Part shown: positions 288 to 39,766 of the stretch, piece by piece | Layout: every line of letters starts with the position of its first letter | Numbering within the stretch: the stretch's first letter is position 1 | The notes under the pieces: model-generated | The model's input: the letters and a program-made list of their open reading frames with translations, nothing else | What the model was told of the DNA's origin: nothing | Database searches by the model: none | Translations under genes and position numbers: made by a program | Virus record (IMG/VR): IMGVR_UViG_3300001750_000014 | Span: 1-39,766 of that record | Strand: one strand, 5' to 3' | DNA: 39,766 bases | Source: a virus

Positions 288-647
288 ATGAAAATAAAAA
301 CACAAGTAATAGTAACAGGAACACGAGCATATGGCCCAGTTACTAAAGACAGCGACATTGATATAGCGTTAATACAAGATGAAGCTACAGCCTTACGTAG
401 ATTTTTAATAAAAAAAGACATCCCTACTTACAAAACCAAGGTACAGCAACTCAATAACTACCCAGGCTATTATTTCAACCTTTACAATATAAAAATTAAT
501 ATCATTTATGTAGATGACAAGAAAGAATTTAATATCTGGAAAAAAGTGACTGAAAAACTTCAGGCATTAGAGCCGATATTCTCAAAAGAAGAGAGAGTCA
601 AAACATTTCAAAGATTTAAAATGGTAGAGGAAATTAAATGCAAGTAA
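288..647 (+). CDS. Minimal nucleotidyltransferase-fold protein (MNT type)
   Basis: This 119-residue protein carries the signature of the polymerase-beta nucleotidyltransferase superfamily: G11-T12 with a downstream G16, then D21-S-D23-I-D25, matching the GS..G..SD.D motif that binds NTP and metal. It is about the size of minimal nucleotidyltransferases (roughly 100-150 aa). Such proteins transfer nucleotides to proteins, RNA or small molecules, and some act as toxin-antitoxin partners; the substrate here is unknown. No HEPN partner is seen nearby. The 3' end overlaps the start of the ParB-methyltransferase gene by 10 bp, suggesting translational coupling and possibly a joint role. The start follows a purine-rich SD leader. 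Confidence 0.75.
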   Translation: MKIKTQVIVTGTRAYGPVTKDSDIDIALIQDEATALRRFLIKKDIPTYKTKVQQLNNYPGYYFNLYNIKINIIYVDDKKEFNIWKKVTEKLQALEPIFSKEERVKTFQRFKMVEEIKCK

Positions 648-1939
648 TACAAAAAGACCCAAATAAAATAATAGTAAAAGAAGGCTTACCAAGGTACCGC
701 AAAGACCTTGGTGCCCTTCACTCACTTGCTGAAAGCATAGCCAGAATTGGCCAAATACAACCAATTGTAATTACAAGAGACCAAGAACTCGTAGCAGGTG
801 GAAGAAGACTCGCTGCCTGTACAGACTTAAAGATAAAAATAAACTGCATCTACAAAGATGACCTCTCCGATATTGACTTAAGAATTTTAGAGATAGAAGA
901 AAACCTCCACAGAAAAGACTTTTCCCCTGGAGAGAAATGCCTTGCAGTAAGAGACCTCCATGCTATGAAACAAGAATCCCTTGGCAAAGCACACAGTGGC
1001 CAATTAGGAGGGTGGACTCTTGAGGATACTGCAAAGCTCCTTGGCTGTTCCAAAGGCTCAATCATAGAGGATATAAAAAGCGCTAACATGATTGATAAAT
1101 TTCCTGACCTTATAAAAGTAAAGAAAAAAGGAGATATTAAAAAGGCAGCCAGAGGATTAGAAAAATTAGCAAGTGCAATCTCTGGCCTTGCTTCTTTAAA
1201 GGAGATAAAAGAAACTGACTTAATTCAATATCATTTCACAGATTCAATTACTTTCATGCCTACACTTAAAGATAACTCCATTGACATCCTCTTAACTGAC
1301 CCACTCTACGGCATTGAGCATGAAACACTACGAATAGGAGACACTCCAAGACTTACCTTCGACGATGAAACAGACAAAGCTCTTGATGTTTACAACTTTT
1401 TAGCCATTGAAAGCTTTCGCTTCACTAATGACACTGCTCATGGCTTTATCTTCCTTGCCCCAGAACATTTCACAACGATACAAAAGATGTTCCATAGAGC
1501 AGGGTGGCAAGCTTATATCAAACCAATAATCTGGATTAAACCAAACTGCGGTCAATGCAACATAGCGTCACAGTGGCCGGCTTCCAGTTACGAAATGATT
1601 CTCTACGTTAAGAAGGAAAAAGCAAGGATAGTAAAAGAAGGCCAACCTGACCACATCATCATGAGTTCAATAGTATCAACTGCAAAAGATCACATTTATG
1701 AAAAACCTGTGCCATTACTACTAAACCTTCTTGATAGAATTTCCATCCCTGGAGGTACACTTTTCGACCCCTTCGCAGGAAGCTGTTCTGCACTAATAGC
1801 AGGAAGGGAAAAACAACTAACTACCATAGGCTGCGACAATTCAAAAGAAGCCTTTGCAATTGGTACAGCTAAATTAAAAGAGTACAAAGAAAGAAAGGAG
1901 GAAGAAAAAAGATGCCATTTAAAACAGGAGAAAGAATAA
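638..1939 (+). CDS. ParB-like domain fused to a DNA methyltransferase
   Basis: The 433-residue protein has an N-terminal ParB/sulfiredoxin-like domain (about residues 1-110). Its landmarks are G38QIQPIVIT, the A53GGRR box and the E87ENLHR segment. A helix-turn-helix-like stretch follows (about 127-147, TLEDTAKLLGCSKGSI). The C-terminal half is an amino-methyltransferase with motifs in beta-class order: catalytic D221-P-L-Y, E355-K-P, then the SAM-binding D377PFAGS. It probably methylates adenine N6 or cytosine N4 in DNA, with the ParB part supplying binding or nucleotide hydrolysis. The catalytic tetrapeptide reads DPLY rather than the usual DPPY/F, so activity should not be assumed. No restriction endonuclease lies beside it, so an orphan phage methylase role fits best. 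It overlaps both neighbouring genes. Confidence 0.88.
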   Translation: MQVIQKDPNKIIVKEGLPRYRKDLGALHSLAESIARIGQIQPIVITRDQELVAGGRRLAACTDLKIKINCIYKDDLSDIDLRILEIEENLHRKDFSPGEKCLAVRDLHAMKQESLGKAHSGQLGGWTLEDTAKLLGCSKGSIIEDIKSANMIDKFPDLIKVKKKGDIKKAARGLEKLASAISGLASLKEIKETDLIQYHFTDSITFMPTLKDNSIDILLTDPLYGIEHETLRIGDTPRLTFDDETDKALDVYNFLAIESFRFTNDTAHGFIFLAPEHFTTIQKMFHRAGWQAYIKPIIWIKPNCGQCNIASQWPASSYEMILYVKKEKARIVKEGQPDHIIMSSIVSTAKDHIYEKPVPLLLNLLDRISIPGGTLFDPFAGSCSALIAGREKQLTTIGCDNSKEAFAIGTAKLKEYKERKEEEKRCHLKQEKE

Positions 1940-2811: not shown

Positions 2812-5223
2812 ATGATTGTTAATGCTATAGGAACTCCAGGGGCTACTATTATGTTAATAGGTGAAGCTCCTGGAGAGCAAGAAAACAGGACAGGGAAACC
2901 TTTTCACCCAGGTACGCCAACTGGTAACACGTTAGATAAAATACTAAACAGCGCAGGGATATCTCGCCATGACTGCATCATTACTAACGTAGCAAAAGAA
3001 AAGCCTCCAGGAAATAAGATAGCTTTTTACTTTCAAGACAGCAAATGCACAATTCCTAAAGATATCTTACTCCAGGACATTGAAAAACTTAAACAGGAAA
3101 TAATTAAATACAAGCCTAACATAGTAATACCTCTTGGTAAAATAGCCACAAATATCCTTACAGGTAATAATAACATAGCTGCAGCAAGAGGTTACATTTG
3201 CGAAAGTACTCTTCTCCCTAATTTAAAAGTCCTCCCTACTTACCACCCACAGCAAGTAAACTATGAGTGGAAACTATTCTTCACTGCAGTATTAGACATA
3301 AGAAAGGCTATTAAGAACTCCGAAAGCCCTGACATGCCTAAAGATAAAAGGGTATTAACTACAAATATGTCAAAGCTTGAATACATCTCTTATTTAAAAT
3401 ACCTCCTATACGAGCATAGCGGGCCAATAGCAGTAGATATTGAAACACTGCAACCTGGCAGCCACATTGACATAATGGGAATTGCAGATAGTGCCACTCA
3501 TGGTGTAGCATTTGAGCTTATAAAAGGTAGAAAACCTATTTACTCTAAGCAAAAAGAACTTGAAATTTGGCAACACCTTGCATTAGTTCTAGAAAATAAA
3601 GAATTAATCATGCAAAATGGCAGTTACGACACTACTGTTCTTTATCTCCACCATGGTATTCACTGCCCTAAATTCTACTACGACACTATGGTAGCTGCCC
3701 ATGTCTGTTGGCCTGAGAATCCAAGAAGTCTTGCTTACCTTGCAAGCATTTGCCTAAATGTTCCTGCATGGAAACATACCAGTCAATCAGAATCTCTACT
3801 CTACAATGCAGGTGACACTACTAACACCTTCGGAGTCTGGAATGTCCTAAGAAAGGAATTAGTAAAGCAAGACGTCATGTCAGTTTTCAACCATGAAATG
3901 TCACAGGTAGAGCCAAGTGTAATGCTACAAATACAAGGACTATTCGTTAATAAAGAAAAGCAGAAAACATTACTTAAAGACATCGAAACTGAACTTACTT
4001 CTATCCAAGAAACTCTTACGGCAAAATTAAATAGAGAGGTAATATTCAAAGCTGATAAAAAGAAAAAGGATGCTTTAAATATTAACAGTCCGACTCAGCT
4101 CGCTGAACTTCTCTACATTGATTTAAAAATTCCGCCACAATATAAGAGAAGAAAAAGAGCTTCAGAAGTAAGGAAAGTAACTACAAATGAAGAAGCACTT
4201 TCAAAACTTGCTCGCACTATTAATGACCCAATTTTTACTGACATTATAAAAGTAAAGAAGCTTTCTAAGTTAAAATCCTTCATAGACATTACCCTTTCCC
4301 CTGCAGATAGCGTTCATACTTCCTACAATGTAACTGGCGCAACTATGGTAAGGGAGAGTAAAGGCTTTGTCCGTGATGAAGAAGATTCCTTTAAAAGCTT
4401 TGGAAGGTGGAGCAGTAGTAAATCAATAATTCTCCCCTTCGGCAGTGGAAACCTTCAGAACATCCCATCAAGGGCAAGAACTATGTACACTGCACCTGAC
4501 GGCTATGAATTCTTACAAGCTGATTACATGCAAGCAGAGGCAGTAGTAGTAGCATATGAAATTAATGACTACAAAAGCATTGCACTATTTGAAGAAAGCT
4601 TCGGCCTTTCAAAAGAAGAGAGACAGAAAAGAGAATTAGACATCCACAAGCTAACAGCCAGTACTATGTTTGGGATACCAATTGCTGAAGTTACCAAAGA
4701 GCTAAGAATGAAAGGAAAGATAGTAAAGCATAGTACTAATTATAATGCTGGCCCAGGAGTAATAGCTCATCAACTACAGATACCAATGAAAGAGGCTAAA
4801 GTTCTTCTCTCTCAAGCCAGTAATGCCACTCCGCAATTAGGACTCTGGCATAAACGAATACAGCAACACCTTCAAAAAGAAAGATCATTAACTAATCTCT
4901 TTGGAAGAAAGCATAGATTCTTAGGCAGGTATAATGACAGCTTATTAAGAAGCGCTTACGCTTTTATTCCTCAATCTACAGTAGGTGATCTTTTAAACAT
5001 GGCACTGGTAAGATTCTATAACATGTACGGAAAGCAGAGAAGAATCAGACTTCAACTTCACGATGCTATTTATACATTCTCTCCAATAGGTAAAAGGGAA
5101 GAGACAATGAAAATGCTAAGAGATGTTATGTTAATTGAAATGAAAAGCTCCAATGGCGTTAAGTACACCATAGACGTTGACTTCAGTGCTGGCCCAAGCT
5201 GGGGAGAAATGAAGGAAGTGTAA
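2812..5223 (+). CDS. Uracil-DNA glycosylase / 3'-5' exonuclease / family A DNA polymerase fusion
   Basis: The 803-residue replicative polymerase has an extra N-terminal domain. Residues ~10-165 match uracil-DNA glycosylase family 4/5: G17EAPG, E24, G28-K-P-F31, T58-N59 and the H145-P active-site histidine. The four Fe-S cysteines of family 4 are not in place. Residues ~200-345 form a proofreading exonuclease with Exo I D209/E211, Exo II N269/D273 and Exo III Y331/D335. The polymerase follows, with motif A D571, motif B R632/K636/H640/Y644 and motif C H750-D751-A752. Motif C normally reads HDE, and position 640 is usually Phe or Tyr. The fusion would couple uracil surveillance to synthesis. 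It is the only DNA polymerase in the window. Confidence 0.93.
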   Translation: MIVNAIGTPGATIMLIGEAPGEQENRTGKPFHPGTPTGNTLDKILNSAGISRHDCIITNVAKEKPPGNKIAFYFQDSKCTIPKDILLQDIEKLKQEIIKYKPNIVIPLGKIATNILTGNNNIAAARGYICESTLLPNLKVLPTYHPQQVNYEWKLFFTAVLDIRKAIKNSESPDMPKDKRVLTTNMSKLEYISYLKYLLYEHSGPIAVDIETLQPGSHIDIMGIADSATHGVAFELIKGRKPIYSKQKELEIWQHLALVLENKELIMQNGSYDTTVLYLHHGIHCPKFYYDTMVAAHVCWPENPRSLAYLASICLNVPAWKHTSQSESLLYNAGDTTNTFGVWNVLRKELVKQDVMSVFNHEMSQVEPSVMLQIQGLFVNKEKQKTLLKDIETELTSIQETLTAKLNREVIFKADKKKKDALNINSPTQLAELLYIDLKIPPQYKRRKRASEVRKVTTNEEALSKLARTINDPIFTDIIKVKKLSKLKSFIDITLSPADSVHTSYNVTGATMVRESKGFVRDEEDSFKSFGRWSSSKSIILPFGSGNLQNIPSRARTMYTAPDGYEFLQADYMQAEAVVVAYEINDYKSIALFEESFGLSKEERQKRELDIHKLTASTMFGIPIAEVTKELRMKGKIVKHSTNYNAGPGVIAHQLQIPMKEAKVLLSQASNATPQLGLWHKRIQQHLQKERSLTNLFGRKHRFLGRYNDSLLRSAYAFIPQSTVGDLLNMALVRFYNMYGKQRRIRLQLHDAIYTFSPIGKREETMKMLRDVMLIEMKSSNGVKYTIDVDFSAGPSWGEMKEV

Positions 5224-23678: not shown

Positions 23679-24716
23679 TTATGTTAACGCAGTAGCGTAA
23701 CCAGCTGCAGTGATAACACCGTAATCTTTAGAGTCAAAGGCTACTTTCTTACAGCCGAAAATACCACCACCCCTGATCATGACAAAGCGCTTGGCATCTT
23801 TTTCGTAAGGTACGAATGACATAGTTGTGCTTTTACTCTCTCCCGCACCGCCCCATGCCCATGTAGCTGCCTGTTTACCAAGAAGAACTGCTCTGTAGAT
23901 ATTGGTATAAAGACTCGGCATTCTTTCACTCTTTGTAATCAGCATGCCATTGTACTCTATTTCAACATCAGGGATCTTTAATTCCTGAGCACTCCTTTTA
24001 AGATCTCCCCACTGGCCAAGATTCATATTAACCCTTAGCTGATCAAAGGCGTAGTTATGAAGAATTACTCTGTAATACTTCTTTCCACCTTTCATCAATG
24101 GTCTGATTTTATCACAGTCAGTCGCAGGAAGTTCTGCCCTTTGCTTTAGTCTATCAAGAAAGGGAAGATCAATAATGTCACCTGAACCAAGACTTGCCTC
24201 AGTGACATCATTTACTGTCATTTTATGCCCAGTATCAGGATCTGTACAAGCCTGCGCAAAGACCTTTCCTGCAATTGTAAAGTTAGTATTACCTGCTAAG
24301 GTATTAATTACAACATCTGATAGTTTGTCTATCCACCAGTCCGCAAGACCATCTTTACCAATCTGCATAAGGTTATAAGGAACTCTTTGTTCCTCCATCT
24401 TACCACCAGTGTCAACAGCATGGTTAAGCTCTTCTATAGTCATGGAGAAATCTTTAAAGACCAGTTTCTCTTCATGACCTTCTACAGTGTCTCGGCCAAC
24501 TCGGCCATCACCAGTCAATTCCCTCCTAATACCAAATTTAATGTTATCCCCTTCTCCTTTGCCCAGTTCAGTCCTCAGCTGCACAATGGCGGAGTCTCCA
24601 CTACCTACAAGGTAGCTAAACTCAGTTGCGGGAAGTAATACTTTAAACAGGTCTCTTGCCCATTTCTTTCTTGTCAGCGGATCATTTGTTTCGAATCTTG
24701 TATTCGGGTAAGGCAT
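23679..24716 (-). CDS. Major capsid protein, N4 gp56 family
   Basis: The 345-residue protein forms the icosahedral shell. The N-terminal third matches the N4 gp56 / DUF4043 capsid family: LGKGEGDNIKFGIRRELTGDG (about 51-71), RDTVEGHEEKLVFKDFSMTI, and an ELNHAVDTGGKMEEQRV helix where the family has its conserved RH...M..QR. A DPDTGHKMTVNDV region and a DQLRVN..W.D substrate-like strand follow. The length is normal for the family. It lies directly after the scaffold gene, overlapping by one base, and shows no sign of an N-terminal maturation peptide. Confidence 0.9.
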   Translation of the reverse strand: MPYPNTRFETNDPLTRKKWARDLFKVLLPATEFSYLVGSGDSAIVQLRTELGKGEGDNIKFGIRRELTGDGRVGRDTVEGHEEKLVFKDFSMTIEELNHAVDTGGKMEEQRVPYNLMQIGKDGLADWWIDKLSDVVINTLAGNTNFTIAGKVFAQACTDPDTGHKMTVNDVTEASLGSGDIIDLPFLDRLKQRAELPATDCDKIRPLMKGGKKYYRVILHNYAFDQLRVNMNLGQWGDLKRSAQELKIPDVEIEYNGMLITKSERMPSLYTNIYRAVLLGKQAATWAWGGAGESKSTTMSFVPYEKDAKRFVMIRGGGIFGCKKVAFDSKDYGVITAAGYATALT

Positions 24717-25594
24717 TAGTTAAGTTCTCCTCTCATGTACTTTTTATAAACATCAGCTGGAACAGAGTTTAAATCCTCTTCTGAAAGGTTATCAATCCTT
24801 GCTACTGTCCAGCCACCTTTTGAATTACCATCACTGGAGCCATCTTGAGTTGACTGCATAGTCTTAACTGCAGTTGCACTTCTTGTCTCCTTTTCTTTTC
24901 CCTTTCCTGTTTCTGTTTCCTTTCCAGCATAAGTAGGATGAAATTCTTTAACAACATCGTAGATATATTTATAAGGATTAGACATACTCCAGATACCCTT
25001 TTCTATCTCTAACACTGCAGAGTTAAAATCAGCACCTTCAGAGCTTTCCAGTTCCTTAGCAATAACTTCAATAATGTCATCTAAGTTAGCACGACTGCAG
25101 ACAGAATCAAGATCACTGTATTTATCCATTCCTCGCATACTGTCAGCCATTAAATCAATCATGCCACCCCTTTCAGTGACAATTTCCCCTATTTCAGCTT
25201 GTAGCACTTCAGAAGGAGAGGGAATTCTATTCCCATCTTCGTCAATATTTTTAGTCTGCAGAGCCTTTAACGCAGCAATTTCTCTTTTCTGCTCCCTGAG
25301 AATTTGCCTCAATTCAATGCGGTCAATCTCCTCTGCTGACTTCTCTCCCTCTATGCTTTCAGTTTCAGTTTCACTTTCACTCTCCACAGAAACTTTATTA
25401 TCTTCATCCTTAGCAGAAGAGTCAGCGCCATTATCGTCAGTGTTACCTGCATCTTTACTATTCTCAACACTTTCCTCTCCTTCTTTTTCCTCTTCTTCTG
25501 CTCCCTCAAGCAAATCCACTTCCTTCAGGACTTCGTCCACTCCAGTAGCGTCTTCCTCTTGCGCAGCACTTTCTCCCACTACAGCATCAGTCAT
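24716..25594 (-). CDS. Scaffolding protein
   Basis: The 292-residue protein is strongly acidic in its first ~95 residues (long Glu/Asp/Ser runs). It has a central coiled-coil helix (RIELRQILREQKREIAALKAL, about 91-111) and a more ordered C-terminal half ending EDLNSVPADVYKKYMRGEL. Scaffolds of tailed phages have this acidic, helical design and precede the capsid gene, exactly as here. It would guide procapsid assembly and then leave. Its ATG overlaps the portal stop codon (ATGA), so translation is coupled. Confidence 0.82.
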   Translation of the reverse strand: MTDAVVGESAAQEEDATGVDEVLKEVDLLEGAEEEEKEGEESVENSKDAGNTDDNGADSSAKDEDNKVSVESESETETESIEGEKSAEEIDRIELRQILREQKREIAALKALQTKNIDEDGNRIPSPSEVLQAEIGEIVTERGGMIDLMADSMRGMDKYSDLDSVCSRANLDDIIEVIAKELESSEGADFNSAVLEIEKGIWSMSNPYKYIYDVVKEFHPTYAGKETETGKGKEKETRSATAVKTMQSTQDGSSDGNSKGGWTVARIDNLSEEDLNSVPADVYKKYMRGELN

Positions 25595-27637: not shown

Positions 27638-30145
27638 TTAACAAACCATCCAGGCGTCTTTGCCCAGCGACCCATTCCCAATCATTCCATAACGTAAATC
27701 ACTTGCCATCTTAGCTTTCTTTTTAATATCCCTACTCCAAAGACTAATCGCCCTGCCGTTGCTGAAGAACTCTGAAATTGCAACGGAGTCTGCAAGGTTA
27801 GGACTCACTACTCCCCTGTGCAGCATGTCTTTTTTACTCTCAAGTTGTAAAGCTCCTTTATTGTCAAAGTCGTATTTTAAAGTTGCCAATTCATTAGCCA
27901 GTTCATGCCCAATATGAACGTCTGAGCCTGCTACTTTAATAGTAATGTCAGGGAAACTGTACCTTGCATGCTGGCAATTATCCCTTACCCTATCGTAAAG
28001 TTCATCCCTAAGTCTTCGCCATTTTGCATTATTACTTGACGCATCGTAAGAGTTAACTTCATAAACTCTCCTCTGGTCAAGACCTCTTGGGTCATGTCTA
28101 AGCCAGTCTACTACGCCACCGCCAACTCCAATTGCATCAACTCCAACACCCGAGGCATCATTGTCATAGTAGGACCTTGTAATATGTTGAGCAAGTTCAG
28201 TAGTACCCATTCCCTGGAAACTGTCCCAGGGTAAGATTTTATTCCCACACCTTGGCATGATGATACTCTTGTCATCGCCGTATCTTGCAACGTCTATAGA
28301 TAGATAAGTAGGCCATTCTGGGTCAACTTCTATCTCATTACCAATGCAAGATATTGCCCAGGATAGTGGAATAAAAGCTCTACTATCATCGAGAGGAGGT
28401 TCTCCTATTACCCTGATTCTAAAGACATTTGAATCTTCCCCGTACTTCTGCGCCATGTAGTCAATGTAAGATTTTGCTACCCTGTTACTATCTCTACAGT
28501 CCCAGTGAAGCCTTTCCCATTTATCCTTCATGACTGGATGATACTGGCTATCGTGGAAGTAACCATTGCTTTTAGTAGGATTACCTATTAACAATATTCT
28601 ATTATCTTCCTGAGTCATAATTCCTTCAAGAGGAATAAAGACAGGATCTGGAACACCTGAAGCTTCATCAACTACAGTTAAAAAATGGTCACCATGAAGG
28701 CCAGCGAGAGTTTCAGCCTGCTCTTCTTTAGACCCTCTTACATTTGGAGATATAGCCCTTATCCACCATTCCTTCGGGTAGTCTTTATGAAATATTTTAG
28801 CTTTCTGAATTACAAATTCATCCTTTAAAAGGCTCTGCCTAATCCACCTGGAAAGCTCACTCCAGAGAACATCATCCAGCTGCCGAGCAGTAGGCGCAGT
28901 GCAGGCTACTTTAGGAAATGTCCTTGTTGAAGAGAACCAGAGAATTACCCAAGAAGCAAAGGTATCTTTTCCTGTATTATGAGTAACAGTAAAATCACTT
29001 AAAAGGTAAAGATGATTACCTGAAAGTTCAAAGCCGTAGTAAGTATCTTCTGGAAGCCTTTCTACTTTAAAACCAAAGTGTAAATTCTTTCTTTGTTCAG
29101 GTGTTTTTTCTACTTTCCTCTTTCGCTTTAAAACTGTTGGAACTTTTGTAGTATTCCTTGAAATTCTAACCTCAAAGTAAGTGCCCTGCTTCTTTACTCC
29201 TTTCCATGTCCAGGACTTCTTTTTCTCCTGTAACACTGCATGCATGCCACAAGATTGTGCAAGTACTTGAATACTTCTAGCTAACCTTTCATTCTTTTGA
29301 ATGATTTGAAATTGTAGTCCTCTTCGCTTATCTGCATAGCCATCAGTGTCTATTAAACCAGCTAACAATTCCAGCCTTTTCTCCATGGAATTGTAAAGGT
29401 AATCGTTAGGGATATGTTTATTAGACAGTAAGTTATAAGCCCTGAACCTATTCAGCATGGCCCCATTATCCCCAGAAAGGCGATGGTTTTTTCCCTTATA
29501 AGTTTTCATCTCAAGGCCGTTAAGTTCTCCAAAATCCCGCCAAATAGTAATTAATTCTTCGTCAATACTGGTTAGTTCCATTAAAGAACTTGTTCCATCA
29601 CCCAGCCACATCCCTAAAATGTAAGGAGGGATAGTTACAGGCTTTTCAGTATACTCAACTGCAGCTTTGTAGCAAGCAAATCTACCTTTTAATGATGGCC
29701 TTTCTGCTATCATTTGAAGATACTCTCTTACTGTAACTATGATCTTATCACCAGTTACAAAACCACATTTATTCCCTGTGCAGATAAGTGCAAGTTTATG
29801 ACTTAAGTTAACGTCATAGTAAGTATTATCATGGTATTTTATCCTGGCCATTTCTTCCTTGCCAGTATAAAGTTTTAACACTTTTCTTGGGGTACTATCA
29901 TCACCCATTAAAAGGTCAGTGGTAGTGATATCCTCTACTGCCTTAGTTCCGTAAGGATAAAGGGAAACTCTTGTCCCTTTGGAGTGACAACCATGTCCAC
30001 TTCTAATAGACATCCTTCTTGTAGCTTCAAACTTCTTCAGTGCCTCTGCCTGTTGATTAGAGGGTGTAGCCTTTAAGCACTCTACCACAAAAAGTAATGG
30101 GCTCTTTCGCCAGGCACTAAGCCTTTTTAAGATTGTTGGATCCAT
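27638..30145 (-). CDS. Large terminase subunit interrupted by an intein
   Basis: The 835-residue precursor splits into host residues 1-52 and 391-835 and an intein (53-390). The joined 497-residue terminase has a Walker A motif GHG/TGKDT across the junction, Walker B VVDEA (491-495), coupling motif GNPT (521-524) and an RNase H-type nuclease with D618 in YLSIDVARYGDD, a second acidic strand VGVDAIG and a late D in NLADSVAI. It packages DNA using ATP and cuts concatemers. Because the intein breaks the P-loop, packaging depends on splicing. No Shine-Dalgarno is visible before the ATG, and the palindromic site ends 10 nt upstream. Confidence 0.95.
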   Translation of the reverse strand: MDPTILKRLSAWRKSPLLFVVECLKATPSNQQAEALKKFEATRRMSIRSGHGCHSKGTRVSLYPYGTKAVEDITTTDLLMGDDSTPRKVLKLYTGKEEMARIKYHDNTYYDVNLSHKLALICTGNKCGFVTGDKIIVTVREYLQMIAERPSLKGRFACYKAAVEYTEKPVTIPPYILGMWLGDGTSSLMELTSIDEELITIWRDFGELNGLEMKTYKGKNHRLSGDNGAMLNRFRAYNLLSNKHIPNDYLYNSMEKRLELLAGLIDTDGYADKRRGLQFQIIQKNERLARSIQVLAQSCGMHAVLQEKKKSWTWKGVKKQGTYFEVRISRNTTKVPTVLKRKRKVEKTPEQRKNLHFGFKVERLPEDTYYGFELSGNHLYLLSDFTVTHNTGKDTFASWVILWFSSTRTFPKVACTAPTARQLDDVLWSELSRWIRQSLLKDEFVIQKAKIFHKDYPKEWWIRAISPNVRGSKEEQAETLAGLHGDHFLTVVDEASGVPDPVFIPLEGIMTQEDNRILLIGNPTKSNGYFHDSQYHPVMKDKWERLHWDCRDSNRVAKSYIDYMAQKYGEDSNVFRIRVIGEPPLDDSRAFIPLSWAISCIGNEIEVDPEWPTYLSIDVARYGDDKSIIMPRCGNKILPWDSFQGMGTTELAQHITRSYYDNDASGVGVDAIGVGGGVVDWLRHDPRGLDQRRVYEVNSYDASSNNAKWRRLRDELYDRVRDNCQHARYSFPDITIKVAGSDVHIGHELANELATLKYDFDNKGALQLESKKDMLHRGVVSPNLADSVAISEFFSNGRAISLWSRDIKKKAKMASDLRYGMIGNGSLGKDAWMVC
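28976..29989 (-). mobile_element. Full-length LAGLIDADG homing-endonuclease intein in the terminase P-loop
   Basis: The 338-residue in-frame element begins with Cys (CHSKGTRVSLY, splicing block A). It has a block B-like LSHKLAL and ends VTHN, followed by Thr as the +1 residue, so all class 1 splicing residues are present. Two endonuclease motifs are intact, YILGMWLGDGT (about 175-185) and LLAGLIDTDGY (about 260-270), implying a mobile element able to home. It lies between Gly52 and Thr391 of the GHGTGKD P-loop, a site where inteins are known in several ATPase families. Confidence 0.95.
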
Positions 30146-31680: not shown

Positions 31681-33555
31681 TTACACTACTCCTTGGTCAA
31701 GATTAATTTTATTCCGTGTTAAATTTATTTCCCAGTCAATCTTTTTTGTAACTGTAAATGCTTTACTGTAAATTTGTAGCCCCTTCTTTTGAATTGTTAA
31801 AGTATGCGGACTGTTATCTCTTATATTTTCCATTACGTAGTAGCCAGTTGCCCCATGAAAGGTAGGGTCAAGCCAGTAAGTTCTTCGCACAAGTGGGATG
31901 GTGGTAAAAACTCCATTTACGTCTGCTGTTAAACTGTCATGGCGTATGAATATTTGCTGCCCTGTCGCGTATTGCCTATCTTCTGTGTTTTCCTGTCCCC
32001 TTGTAACAGTAAGGACATCTCCAGTTACATTAGTAACTGTTAAAACTTCACGATTAACTCTAATTGAATCACCAGTTGAAAAAACAGAGCCATCACTTAC
32101 AGTCCAGTCAGTTTCACCTATTGAAATTGCTTCACTTAATGTTTCATTACTGTTTAACCAGATTGCATTATAGCCATTTATGTCTTTTACTTTTACAACA
32201 GCATCTTGTAAAATAGTATTATCAATTTTTAAATCCATTGTGTATTGCTCTAAAACTACTTGATGAGCAACTTCAGCTGTGGTTACTACACTTCCCCGGA
32301 TATCAGGTGTGGAATTCGCGAAAGTAACATTCTCTAAGATAGTAACTTGGTCTTCTGTAGCAGAACGGTTATATCCTCTGAAGTCATACTGTGTGGGGTT
32401 TAGAAAAGTGGAGTTAGCAATTTTACCCTGCCGGATGTTATACCCAGATATAATGAAATTTTCTATTTCACAGTCTTCAATATTTACGTCAGTGGCTGCA
32501 AGTTCGGCTGCTAAAATATGCATTTTATTCGATTGAAGGTCTAAAACAGCTGGCTTTACCCTACCAGATGATGACCCTGCCCCAATTGGGTCGTATAAAC
32601 TTCTATACATTGTAAAGTTACAGTCATCTACCATCTGAAACAAATGACCGCTCTTACCTCTCGTTAAGTTAGTATAGGGTAATTCTTTTGGAAGGCTTAT
32701 AATACTACCTTCGTATATTTCAACAGTACCGTAAGAACCAGAGTACCAGGCGTAGCCCCCACCACGTTGCCAAGTTCCACCATACTTCCCTTTACCATTT
32801 TCAATTTCTCCAGTTCGAAAGTAGCTATCTGAATCAAACCATGTCTTTCCCCATTGCTGTAGAAAGTAAGTCCTATTTGGAATACCAAAGTATAAAGGCT
32901 GTGTCCCTGGTTGTGGCTGCCTAATAGATGCCATTGTTCTAACTGCGATAACAGAATCCATTCCTGGGTACATGTTCCAGCTATCAATACAATATGTTTT
33001 ACTATTCGTTACAGCCCAGTTATAAAGATCTTCTGGCGTTATAGGGTCACTATCACTGCCGCCTTCTACCTCCCAGCATGGACAACCATCAGGTAGTAAA
33101 GGGCACCTTCCTAAAGATTTACTCCCATCATCTGTGTATTTGTAGCCAGAACCTGAAGCTACACATTGTGATTTTGTTAAGCCGTAGGCTCTGGCGCTTG
33201 AACCAGCTAGCAAGAGGTGAGAGTAAAAAGTACCACTTTTATACGCATCGTAGTCACCAGAAATTTCTGTCTTAAAGATTAAAAAGACTTCACCGTCATA
33301 GCCATTTGAGTCAACAGGGTTATCCCAATAAAGTTCAATACTCTTATTTACTGCATCAGTTGTTGCTGTTACTTCAGCGCAGGGAATAGAGCACCAGAAC
33401 ATTGCAATATTGCCAGCATTGTATCGATCCCCAGGCCCTATAGCTACAACTCTGTAGTAGTAAGTTGTACCAGCAGTTAATACCCCACCAGATACTGCAG
33501 TAGCAGTTGGGTTAGTCGGCGCAGGGCATTCATTAAGAGTAATTACTTTTGCCAT
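31681..33555 (-). CDS. Tail fibre / tailspike with fibronectin-like and beta-helix regions
   Basis: The 624-residue protein starts with a fibronectin type III-like domain (about 8-110, including TAGTTYYYRVVAIGPGDRYN and NKSIELYWDNP). A cysteine-containing linker follows (RCPLLPDGCPCWEVEGG). The middle, about 210-430, looks like a right-handed parallel beta-helix, with rungs such as DVNIEDCEIENFIISGYNI and KIANSTFLNP. The C-terminal part (about 470-610) is beta-rich with TGDSIRVNREVLTVTNVTGD. This build suits a host-receptor-binding spike or fibre. No catalytic polysaccharide lyase residues could be identified. Confidence 0.75.
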   Translation of the reverse strand: MAKVITLNECPAPTNPTATAVSGGVLTAGTTYYYRVVAIGPGDRYNAGNIAMFWCSIPCAEVTATTDAVNKSIELYWDNPVDSNGYDGEVFLIFKTEISGDYDAYKSGTFYSHLLLAGSSARAYGLTKSQCVASGSGYKYTDDGSKSLGRCPLLPDGCPCWEVEGGSDSDPITPEDLYNWAVTNSKTYCIDSWNMYPGMDSVIAVRTMASIRQPQPGTQPLYFGIPNRTYFLQQWGKTWFDSDSYFRTGEIENGKGKYGGTWQRGGGYAWYSGSYGTVEIYEGSIISLPKELPYTNLTRGKSGHLFQMVDDCNFTMYRSLYDPIGAGSSSGRVKPAVLDLQSNKMHILAAELAATDVNIEDCEIENFIISGYNIRQGKIANSTFLNPTQYDFRGYNRSATEDQVTILENVTFANSTPDIRGSVVTTAEVAHQVVLEQYTMDLKIDNTILQDAVVKVKDINGYNAIWLNSNETLSEAISIGETDWTVSDGSVFSTGDSIRVNREVLTVTNVTGDVLTVTRGQENTEDRQYATGQQIFIRHDSLTADVNGVFTTIPLVRRTYWLDPTFHGATGYYVMENIRDNSPHTLTIQKKGLQIYSKAFTVTKKIDWEINLTRNKINLDQGVV

Positions 33556-35602: not shown

Positions 35603-35664
35603 CACCAGCCAGTACCCTAAAGGGGTCTTGGGGGGGTCTTTTCTTGGTGTTGTTTTGACTGGCT
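35603..35664. other. G-rich structured element in the divergent control region
   Basis: In an otherwise AT-rich stretch, GGGGTCTTGGGGGGGTCTT forms a doubled G-run. It is enclosed by the 7-bp inverted repeat AGCCAGT (35607-35613) and ACTGGCT (35658-35664), with an inner ACCC/GGGT pairing. The core CTAAAGGGGTCTTG-GGGG-T resembles the terminator layout of T7-like phages, but no phage RNA polymerase gene is present. It could be an RNA structure, terminator or protein-binding site. Confidence 0.4.
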
Positions 35665-36410: not shown

Positions 36411-36875
36411 ATGACTGAAGTAAAAGCAGTAGAAGTAGAAGAAGAAGTAAAAGTAAAGGTAAAAAGAATGAAGTGGAATTTTAACAAAGAAGATGAAACA
36501 TTAAGCCTTGGAACATTAACTCTTAACCTTAAAGAAAGTACTTATGGTTCTTTAAGTAGTAACATTGATAAATATGTCTTCCTTTATGGAATTAAACAAG
36601 CTTGTAGTGACGCAGGAGCAGGGATTAAGGATTTTACTTTAAGAAAGGAAAAAGTAGAGAAAAAGTTTTCACTTTTTATAAATCAAGATAGTGATTTCTT
36701 GCCTCAAGGAAGAAAGGCTTTAACTGCTGAAGAGAAATTAAAAGTTAAGGTTAAAAAAGTTGAAGGTTTAATTCTTGAAATGATAAATGCTGGAATGGGA
36801 AGAGAAATGGCAATTGCTATTGCTGGAAAGACTTTTAGCCTTAGTGAAAAGGAGCTGGAAGGAATTAAAGTTTAA
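36411..36875 (+). CDS. Conserved-looking small phage protein of unknown function
   Basis: The 154-residue protein has a Val/Glu/Lys-rich start, then MKWNFNKEDETLSLGTLTLNL and IDKYVFLYGIKQACSDAGAG (about 55-75). That layout recalls a phage family with a lhGl.Q...DA.A motif. The C-terminal third is helical and basic. No catalytic motif is visible. The start follows AAAGGAGTATTAAA. A terminator lies 67 bp after it, so it ends the first short transcript of the right arm. Confidence 0.66.
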   Translation: MTEVKAVEVEEEVKVKVKRMKWNFNKEDETLSLGTLTLNLKESTYGSLSSNIDKYVFLYGIKQACSDAGAGIKDFTLRKEKVEKKFSLFINQDSDFLPQGRKALTAEEKLKVKVKKVEGLILEMINAGMGREMAIAIAGKTFSLSEKELEGIKV

Positions 36876-36907
36876 AGTTCTTTAGTTTTAAAAAGTGCAG
36901 TTAAAAA

Positions 36908-36920
36908 GTCAAAGTTTGAC
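36908..36920. promoter_or_regulatory. Palindromic site 5, left flank of the candidate origin
   Basis: GTCAAA-G-TTTGAC has perfect half-sites with a changed centre. It lies 32 bp after the gene ending at 36875 and just before a terminator. Together with the copy at 37964 it brackets the gene-free segment. Confidence 0.6.
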
Positions 36921-36942
36921 TCTTTTGTTTGAAATGGAATGG

Positions 36943-36982
36943 AAAAGAGAGGTGGTATTTTTTATAATATTGTCTCTCTTTT
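36943..36982 (+). terminator. Rho-independent terminator
   Basis: The 9-bp perfect stem AAAAGAGAG (36943-36951) and CTCTCTTTT (36974-36982) has a 22-nt AT-rich loop, and the U-run forms the end of the stem. It is placed after the gene ending at 36875, so it should end the right arm's first transcript before the gene-free segment. Confidence 0.6.
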
Positions 36983-36994
36983 ATCCCTTTTAGA

Positions 36995-37056
36995 ATGGCA
37001 ATTTGCCATGTTCTTTGGCCTTTTAGAAAAAAGTAATACCTTGGGTAAGGTTTTTT
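36995..37056 (+). terminator. Palindrome followed by a second short terminator-like hairpin
   Basis: ATGGCAA-T-TTGCCAT (36995-37009) is a perfect 15-bp inverted repeat, a possible protein site. Downstream, ACCTT-GGGT-AAGGT (37038-37051) followed by TTTTT forms a weak terminator. Together with the hairpin before it, this seals transcription away from the AT-rich core. Confidence 0.45.
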
Positions 37057-37117
37057 AAAGTCCTCTTATTTGAGCTCTGTTATATGTAAATATGTATTCT
37101 TGTAATGTTTGTACTTT

Positions 37118-37876
37118 TGTAAATATGTATTTCAGTAATGCGCGTCAACTTGTATTATTTTTTCTTTCAACCATTTGAAATCATTATAAAAAAATGTCAA
37201 AAAGTGCAAATCCGTTTCCTGTATCCTGTAACGTCAGAAAGAGGCATTTCAAAAAGGGCCTATATCATTTTGACATGACTTTACTATTAAGCCTGACTTA
37301 CTGGTAGTTTGTTATTACTTGTAGTTTGTATTAGTAAACGTGCAAGAACCGTGCCATTATTTGTTATTATCTCCTTTTATATATATTTTTTTTTATATAG
37401 TAAGAAGAATGAGTTACTGATACTGTTATTCTTTTATTACTTTATTCTTTTATATTATTATTGTTTTATGGAAGTATTAACTAATGCTATTATTTACTTA
37501 TATTGTTATTCTTTTATTATTTAATTAACTTAAGGAAGTATTCTTTTATTCTTTTATTCTTTTATGAAAGTATAAGACTATAAAAGTATTAGTTAAAAAA
37601 AGGTTCTTACAGAAATATCATAAGATTATTATATAATAAAAATATATATAAATAAATATATAAAAGAATAAGTAGTTAAAAGTATGAGATTATTATTTAA
37701 TAAGTAAGTGAAGTAAATTGAACATAGGTGGTTTTGAAAATGTGCTTTTATTCTGTTACAGGATACAGAGAACGGATTTGGTGTTTTTATTCATTTTTTG
37801 CAATGATTTTAACCATTTATGGGTAAAAAGAATACAACCTGACGGACGTCATTAAAATACATGTTGACACATTTAC
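37118..37876. other. Candidate replication origin: inverted-repeat arms around an AT-rich core
   Basis: Two arms in inverted orientation, 37118-37232 and 37755-37876, share several blocks in the same order. The best is a 26-bp block (37207-37232 against 37755-37780) matching at 24 positions, made of CAAATCCGTT, two variable bases and CTGTATCCTGTAAC. Outward come shared AATCATT with A-runs, TTGTATT with CGTCA, and TGTAAAT. The 520-bp core is extremely AT-rich and holds repeated 16-mers and 8-mers. No gene is convincing here. Terminators on the left and palindromic sites on both sides isolate it. An origin is the likeliest role; a packaging or recombination site is possible. Confidence 0.5.
37424..37563. 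repeat. Direct repeats inside the AT-rich core
   Basis: TGTTATTCTTTTATTA occurs identically at 37424-37439 and 37504-37519, exactly 80 bp apart. GGAAGTATT occurs at 37470 and 37534. ATTCTTTT is repeated three times in tandem at 37540-37563. These T-rich iterons sit where strand opening would be expected if the segment is an origin. Confidence 0.55.
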
Positions 37877-37896
37877 ACCCATATGCAATAATGAAA

Positions 37897-37924: not shown

Positions 37925-37963
37925 CTTCCCCATTTTCAAGCTGATTAAAAGGCAAGGTAAAGA

Positions 37964-37976
37964 GTCAAATTTTGAC
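37964..37976. promoter_or_regulatory. Palindromic site 6, right flank of the candidate origin
   Basis: A perfect GTCAAA-T-TTTGAC lies 44 bp before the ATG of the next + gene. It mirrors the copy at 36908 on the other side of the gene-free segment and is followed by a pyrimidine-rich leader. Confidence 0.62.
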
Positions 37977-38020
37977 TTTCTTTCTTTTTATTTCACCATA
38001 AAATTAAAAAAGAAAAGGAA

Positions 38021-38794: not shown

Positions 38795-39087
38795 ATGGTA
38801 GGAAAAAAAGACAATGCAGAAGAAGTCTTCGACCGAGCAGTAATGCTTGCAGTTGAAGAAAATGACACTGATGCAGTAGAGGTGTCATTTCATTTACTAA
38901 AAGAAAGAGAAAACTTTAGAGTTAGACTATACCGCCAGAAAAGACTATTTAAAGAGGCAAATCCTGAAATGGCAGAGAAGATTAAAATAGCTGCAATTAC
39001 AGACAGGAAGAAAAAAGAGTTTAAAATTCAACTTTCTTACTGTCAGAATATAGAAATTAAGATAGTTTCTAAGGAAGGGGAGAAGAA

Positions 39088-39091
<4 letters not shown>
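38795..39091 (+). CDS. Charged helical protein of unknown function
   Basis: The 98-residue protein is mostly helical by composition. It has an acidic first third (AEEVFDRAVMLAVEENDTDAV) and a basic remainder with RVRLYRQKRLFKEANPEMAEKI. It has no membrane segment and one cysteine. The 90 bp before it are low-complexity pyrimidine then purine runs, in which CTTTCTTTTTT and AAAAAAGAAAG can pair as a weak hairpin. Its stop overlaps the next start (ATGA), so the two are translationally coupled. Confidence 0.64.

Positions 39092-39766
<675 letters not shown>

Follow-up and report, generated by a model that had tools for sequence, protein, structure and literature searches.

Theta origins have a common theme: an initiator binds to several sites and thereby opens the A+T-rich region next to them; ori-lambda is, in addition, transcriptionally activated (PMC5043065). 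The phage locus analyzed here resembles ori-lambda in that repeated sites, candidate initiator sites in our case, lie beside an A+T-rich region within the early region and near an early promoter (PMC5043065). The layout, however, differs. In ori-lambda the sites are one-sided, next to a 40-bp A+T-rich region within the O gene, whereas here inverted arrays lie on both sides of a core of about 50–500 bp located outside genes, and no O-like gene was found. In archaeal origins, repeats flank an A+T-rich unwinding element (PMC5333045). As in archaeal chromosomal origins, where ORB repeats flank the DUE, the repeats described here surround an A+T-rich candidate unwinding element (PMC5333045). Unlike in archaea, no Orc1/Cdc6 gene was recognized, and the arms differ among phages, with no conserved ORB.

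The origins of PLE satellites and RepA_N plasmids contain inverted sub-repeats inside each short iteron, while the present element inverts entire arms, and a RepA_N gene was not recognized. Herpesvirus oriS and SV40-type viral origins place inverted initiator sites to either side of an A+T-rich centre, the arrangement that we propose below, but they are much shorter and their proteins are unrelated. Beyond a few model systems, most virulent phages have, to our knowledge, no known origin. Symmetric origins are already known as a kind; for a layout conserved over phages that have diverged deeply and whose arm sequences have been exchanged, we found no published description in the open-access literature.

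The Element in the Window

The window, i.e., the entire 39,766-nucleotide stretch of viral DNA analyzed (IMGVR_UViG_3300001750_000014), has its strongest spaced inverted repeat at 37096–37232 versus 37755–37892 (138 alignment columns, 70.3% identity, E=8e-10). Local alignment of one arm against the other scored 84; over 1,000 dinucleotide shuffles, scores averaged 23 and never exceeded 39. In a separate comparison the element scored 89, compared with 41 for the best of 287 random places in the window. The large imperfect inverted repeat of the original prediction is therefore real, and so is the 26-bp block within it, which matches at 24 of 26 positions (37207–37232 and 37755–37780). Its arms, put at about 115–120 bp, turned out to be somewhat longer, and the best bounds of the element, 37096–37892, are slightly wider than those first drawn.

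The core between the arms is 522 bp long and 78.5% A+T, with 84% A+T in its inner part (37364–37716) and 91% over 80 bp at 37620–37700. Both the AT-richest 200-mer and the AT-richest 300-mer of the window fall inside it; the 300 bp from 37381 are 85% A+T. The core had been described as almost pure A+T: it does hold the AT-richest DNA, but the purity was overstated. Repeats of 8 bp, such as TATTCTTT in 3.4 copies, and of 16 bp were present, as the predicted internal iterons would have it. The absence of a convincing gene also held up, since the element contains no ORF longer than 71 aa and no relative was found for any ORF there. The same is true of the nested layout, with one palindrome outside each arm and terminator-like hairpins on the left (Table 1).

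Structural genes run leftward from 35437 and early genes begin at about 36.1 kb, which places the element about 1.7 kb into the early region, measured from a small-terminase-like gene. The replication block of the phage comprises a ParB_N-methyltransferase fusion, a UDG-PolA fusion, a DUF3987 helicase-like protein, and ThyX; the DUF3987 family consists of predicted helicases (PMC5862659). The phage also has a phrog_156-type portal and a TerL with an insertion of about 336 aa.

Table 1. Coordinates of the element, its surroundings in the window, and the corresponding elements of six relatives
Feature	Position	Strand	Remarks
Upstream early gene	36411..36875	+	154 aa; (Y/F/H)GxKQ-like motif
Palindrome AAAGTCAAAGTTTGACTCTTT, outer left	36905..36925	.	
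Terminator-like hairpin	36943..36982	+	17 pairs, T tail; after upstream early gene
Second terminator-like hairpin	36995..37009	+	short
Left arm	37096..37232	+	from inverted-repeat alignment; contains 26-bp block 37207–37232
TGTAAATATGTATT repeat	37118		in left arm; second copy at 37085, just outside the arm
Tandem heptamer pair TCCTGTA-TCCTGTA	37217–37230		within left arm
A+T-rich core, candidate unwinding region	37233..37754	.	from composition and internal repeats
Right arm	37755..37892	-	inverted copy of left arm; 70% identical, gaps few
Promoter-like TTGACA-17-AATAAT	37864..37892	+	outer edge of right arm; 11/12, TG before -10; faces early genes
Palindrome AAAGTCAAAATTTGACTCTTT (- strand), outer right	37959..37979	.	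about 70 nt downstream of promoter
Downstream early gene	38795..39091	+	98 aa; its G004 relative lies directly downstream of the G004 element
Element in Mel-JY34	44129–44291		
Element in VS-ABTNL-3	40665–40790		
Element in MW202489	38405–38613		
Element in MW202554	35772–36018		
Element in OP947158	about 43055–43445		
Element in vir526	385–782		

Architecture and Arm Sequences in Relatives

The arm sequence of the window had no match in relatives. An exact search of viral contigs with the shared 23-bp part of the block found none, and comparison of the window with phage records at the DNA level returned nothing. Because the neighboring proteins (31681–33555 and 36411–36875) likewise led to no relatives, these were sought through PolA (41%–55% identity), TerL, and portal, and among phage records with the UDG-PolA and DUF3987 block; the genomes scanned were picked as PolA or helicase relatives, not randomly. 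The 13 genomes counted below are the window and 12 relatives with the same UDG-PolA and DUF3987-helicase module whose sequence spans the locus (G004, G007, G009, G010, G013, G014, Mel-JY34, VS-ABTNL-3, MW202489, MW202554, OP947158, and vir526); contigs G008 and G011, which apparently do not reach it, were left out. Cultured Microcystis and Vibrio phages and one virus assigned to Methanomicrobiales are among the 13. A 47-kb phage of the group (L029/G014:C102, JAUWAD010000005.1) is filed within the Bacillota MAG CSMAG_1285, either a hint at its host or a binning artefact.

A spaced inverted repeat around an A+T-rich or poly-A/T core was present at the locus in 13/13 genomes, and in one uniform test every one of these repeats outscored all of about 290 random places of its own genome. 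In G004, G007, G009, G010, G013, and G014, it is the strongest inverted repeat of the genome or among the strongest. Compared with the best of 12 shuffled genomes, five of these six were clearly above and G013 was weaker (38.3 versus 32.8 bits); for Mel-JY34, VS-ABTNL-3, and OP947158, BLAST scores taken alone are near the shuffle maximum. With bounds in the relatives drawn by eye, ahead of the composition and lag statistics, the arms measure 22–140 bp across genomes, aligning over 22–139 columns at 71%–95% identity with few gaps, and the cores measure 49–506 bp. Core G+C is below genome G+C in all 13 (for example, 0.24 versus 0.43 in G004, 0.35 versus 0.59 in Mel-JY34, and 0.39 versus 0.62 in MW202489). 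The cores of G009 and G010 contain a poly-A/T run of 27–28 nt, and that of OP947158 a shorter one. The place is constant as well: about 1–3 kb within the early region, near the strand switch. Conservation of the arms in relatives, on which the original prediction had been made to depend, is thus seen in their inverted pairing in every genome, but not in their sequence.

Autocorrelation pooled over the arms peaks at lag 7 (Z=8.9) and lag 14 (Z=6.0). Several arms carry tandem heptamers, the units of which differ from phage to phage. Tandem units comprise six copies of ATAACAT and 11 of ATGTTAT in G009, GTACTAG (3.9 copies) and GTGCTA (3.3) in G010, TGTATCG (3.9) in G004, AACGGC (3.5) in G007, and two copies each of GTTCACC in G014 and TCCTGTA in the window. 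No clear heptamer array was seen in Mel-JY34, MW202554, or G013. At the sequence level, the lag of 7 and the arrays provide candidate initiator sites such as an iteron-type origin would have, although arrays are weak or absent in some genomes.

Just outside the early-side arm, an outward-facing TTGACA-17 promoter occurs in 7 of the 13 genomes (the window, G004, G009, G013, G014, Mel-JY34, and MW202489); in the six relatives, no more than 3% of random stretches score as high. No such promoter was found at the element in G007, G010, OP947158, VS-ABTNL-3, or MW202554. The early gene upstream of the element encodes a (Y/F/H)GxKQ-like motif in seven genomes, the window and six relatives, as judged by the direct motif only, a broad profile having drifted past the second round.

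No convincing repeat was detected in Kuura (a Caulobacter phage), PaP2 (Fredfastierviridae), or EBPR podovirus 3, despite their helicase relative; a helicase of the DUF3987 family is therefore not always accompanied by the element. MW202455 also showed no convincing element. Polaromonas phage Tiera (L058) has a 780-bp non-coding region at 43391–44172, possibly a degenerate version of the element, in which a weak inverted repeat is accompanied by a direct duplication and by a TTGACA-16-TATAAT promoter. In G007 (rotated by 24000), a second and stronger inverted match of 92 bp with 78% identity (24169–24260 versus 25484–25575) pairs the right arm with a site at a distance of 1.3 kb, which suggests that arms are copied within the genome.

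Proposed Origin Function and Alternative Readings

On balance, we think the element is probably the replication origin of the phage, or one of its origins, with inverted initiator sites enclosing an unwinding region. Along with origin function, we infer initiator binding, melting, and fork direction as follows. A phage initiator would bind the repeated sites, which, being placed in both arms, would face each other across the core. It would then melt the A+T-rich core and load the DUF3987 helicase onto each strand, whereupon two forks would depart symmetrically; transcription from the adjacent promoter would probably help the opening. The initiator and its sites would co-diverge, and arm letters would therefore turn over while the inverted arrangement stays.

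An A+T-rich region distinct from the genome, as an iteron-type origin has for unwinding, was found in all 13 genomes, the window included. The 13 genomes share PolA and the DUF3987 family but carry terminases of two PHROG types; by this comparison of genes, the element travels with the replication module, which strengthens the origin reading. An initiator gene was not recognized beside those for UDG-PolA and the DUF3987 helicase (and, in relatives, ligase, exonuclease, and Sak4). A skew change at the element, proposed at the outset as a check, did not materialize: the cumulative GC-skew minimum, at 35617, coincides with the strand switch some 1.5 kb away (1.5–3 kb overall) and is confounded by gene direction, and GC3 skew has no consistent jump at the element.

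The original prediction allowed for an origin or another cis-acting site such as one for packaging. The cis-acting nature is upheld by an architecture kept in 13 genomes; the origin has gained from the comparison and packaging has lost. A packaging start or concatemer-resolution site used by terminase now appears quite unlikely to us. Palindromes are involved in concatemer processing of T7-like phages, a role that would suit such a site, and a small-terminase-like gene lies about 1.6–2.4 kb from the element in the five genomes where it was identified. The element does not, however, track a terminase family as a pac or cos site would: it occurs with phrog_2-type TerL (the window and MW202489) and with phrog_38-type TerL (Mel-JY34, OP947158, VS-ABTNL-3, and vir526), which weakens this explanation. 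Moreover, TerL, portal, and TerS profiles of the window clade found no homologue in the distant genomes, where the replication profiles do match, and an A+T-rich core with iteron-like repeats is unexpected of pac or cos sites. An operator or enhancer array of the early promoter, with a regulator on both arms looping the DNA and no role in replication, would account for the inverted orientation of the repeated sites and for the promoter directly at the early-side arm in 7/13 genomes. It leaves the most A+T-rich DNA between the arms unexplained, and the element is present in the five genomes listed above in which no such promoter was found; we give it as little credence as packaging.

Somewhat less improbable, but still unlikely, is control of the early operon at the RNA level, whereby the early-sense transcript would form one long hairpin that steers transcription or message decay. 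Folding of the entire element is far superior to that of shuffles in 13/13 genomes (z between -17.6 and -3.9, and z -8.2 when treated as DNA; in the window, 194 pairs are cross-centre), and arm mismatches are G.U-compatible more often on the early-sense than on the other strand (50 versus 24; binomial p 0.012 given composition). Yet the antisense strand also folds strongly above shuffles, and a C-to-T mutation bias of the sense strand yields the same G.U lean, which the window itself does not show (8 versus 9). In the window, the terminators precede the element and the adjacent promoter faces away from it, so sense transcription may not run through it; an Rfam search of the window gave no match. 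Least probable are the ends of a mobile element (terminal inverted repeats), an invertible segment, or a neutral inverted duplication. Two inverted arms flanking a gene-free stretch would fit these, but the arms occupy the same place in 13 diverged genomes with differing letters, those of the window are only about 70% alike, and no transposase or recombinase was recognized beside the element.

Returning to the replication origin, we advance more tentatively the view that a lineage of tailed viruses, one of them assigned to archaea, may start replication at a large symmetric origin whose sites have been almost wholly replaced while arrangement and place were kept. If true, this would call for fast co-evolution of the initiator with its sites and for some process that keeps both arms alike. 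The candidate origin is recognizable by architecture, not by sequence, in records of Microcystis and Vibrio phages, of a Bacillota genome bin, and of a Methanomicrobiales virus, and the cultured members Mel-JY34 and VS-ABTNL-3 make origin function directly testable. Confirmation would open a route to origins in metagenomic phages, give a handle on a new initiator family, and provide naturally varied origins that share one layout but have their recognition sequences exchanged.

Other Observations on the Window

The DNA polymerase I encoded at 2812–5223 bears a uracil-DNA-glycosylase domain at its N terminus. The fusion of a ParB N-terminal domain with an N6/N4 DNA methyltransferase is encoded at 638–1939 and adjoins PolA in almost all relatives. 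TerL (27638–30145) is 835 aa long. The 501-aa TerL of the close relative L006 matches its residues 1–52 and 389–834, and short TerL proteins (487–513 aa) occur in five more relatives of the same family (G007, G010, G011, G013, and G014). Residues ~53–388 are thus an insertion, probably an intein.

Poly-A runs at 1–14 and 39737–39766 are the sole A or T runs of at least 10 nt in the window. Their restriction to the ends had raised the idea of a closed circle, which was dropped in view of absent conserved gene families and of circular relatives of about 48 kb. Since a PD-DEXK exonuclease, a Sak4-like ATPase, a DNA ligase, and one unknown family, kept in 9–12 relatives, are absent, several kb are probably missing from the contig.

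The palindrome AAAGTCAAANTTTGACTTT occurs at six intergenic places in the window (5233, 15417, 22694, 30151, 36905, and 37959), where 0.01 would be expected; five of the six lie within about 30 nt past a stop codon. Similar GTCAA..TTGAC hairpins are present in G004, G010, G011, G013, and G014. Palindromes of this type are probably terminators of this phage group.
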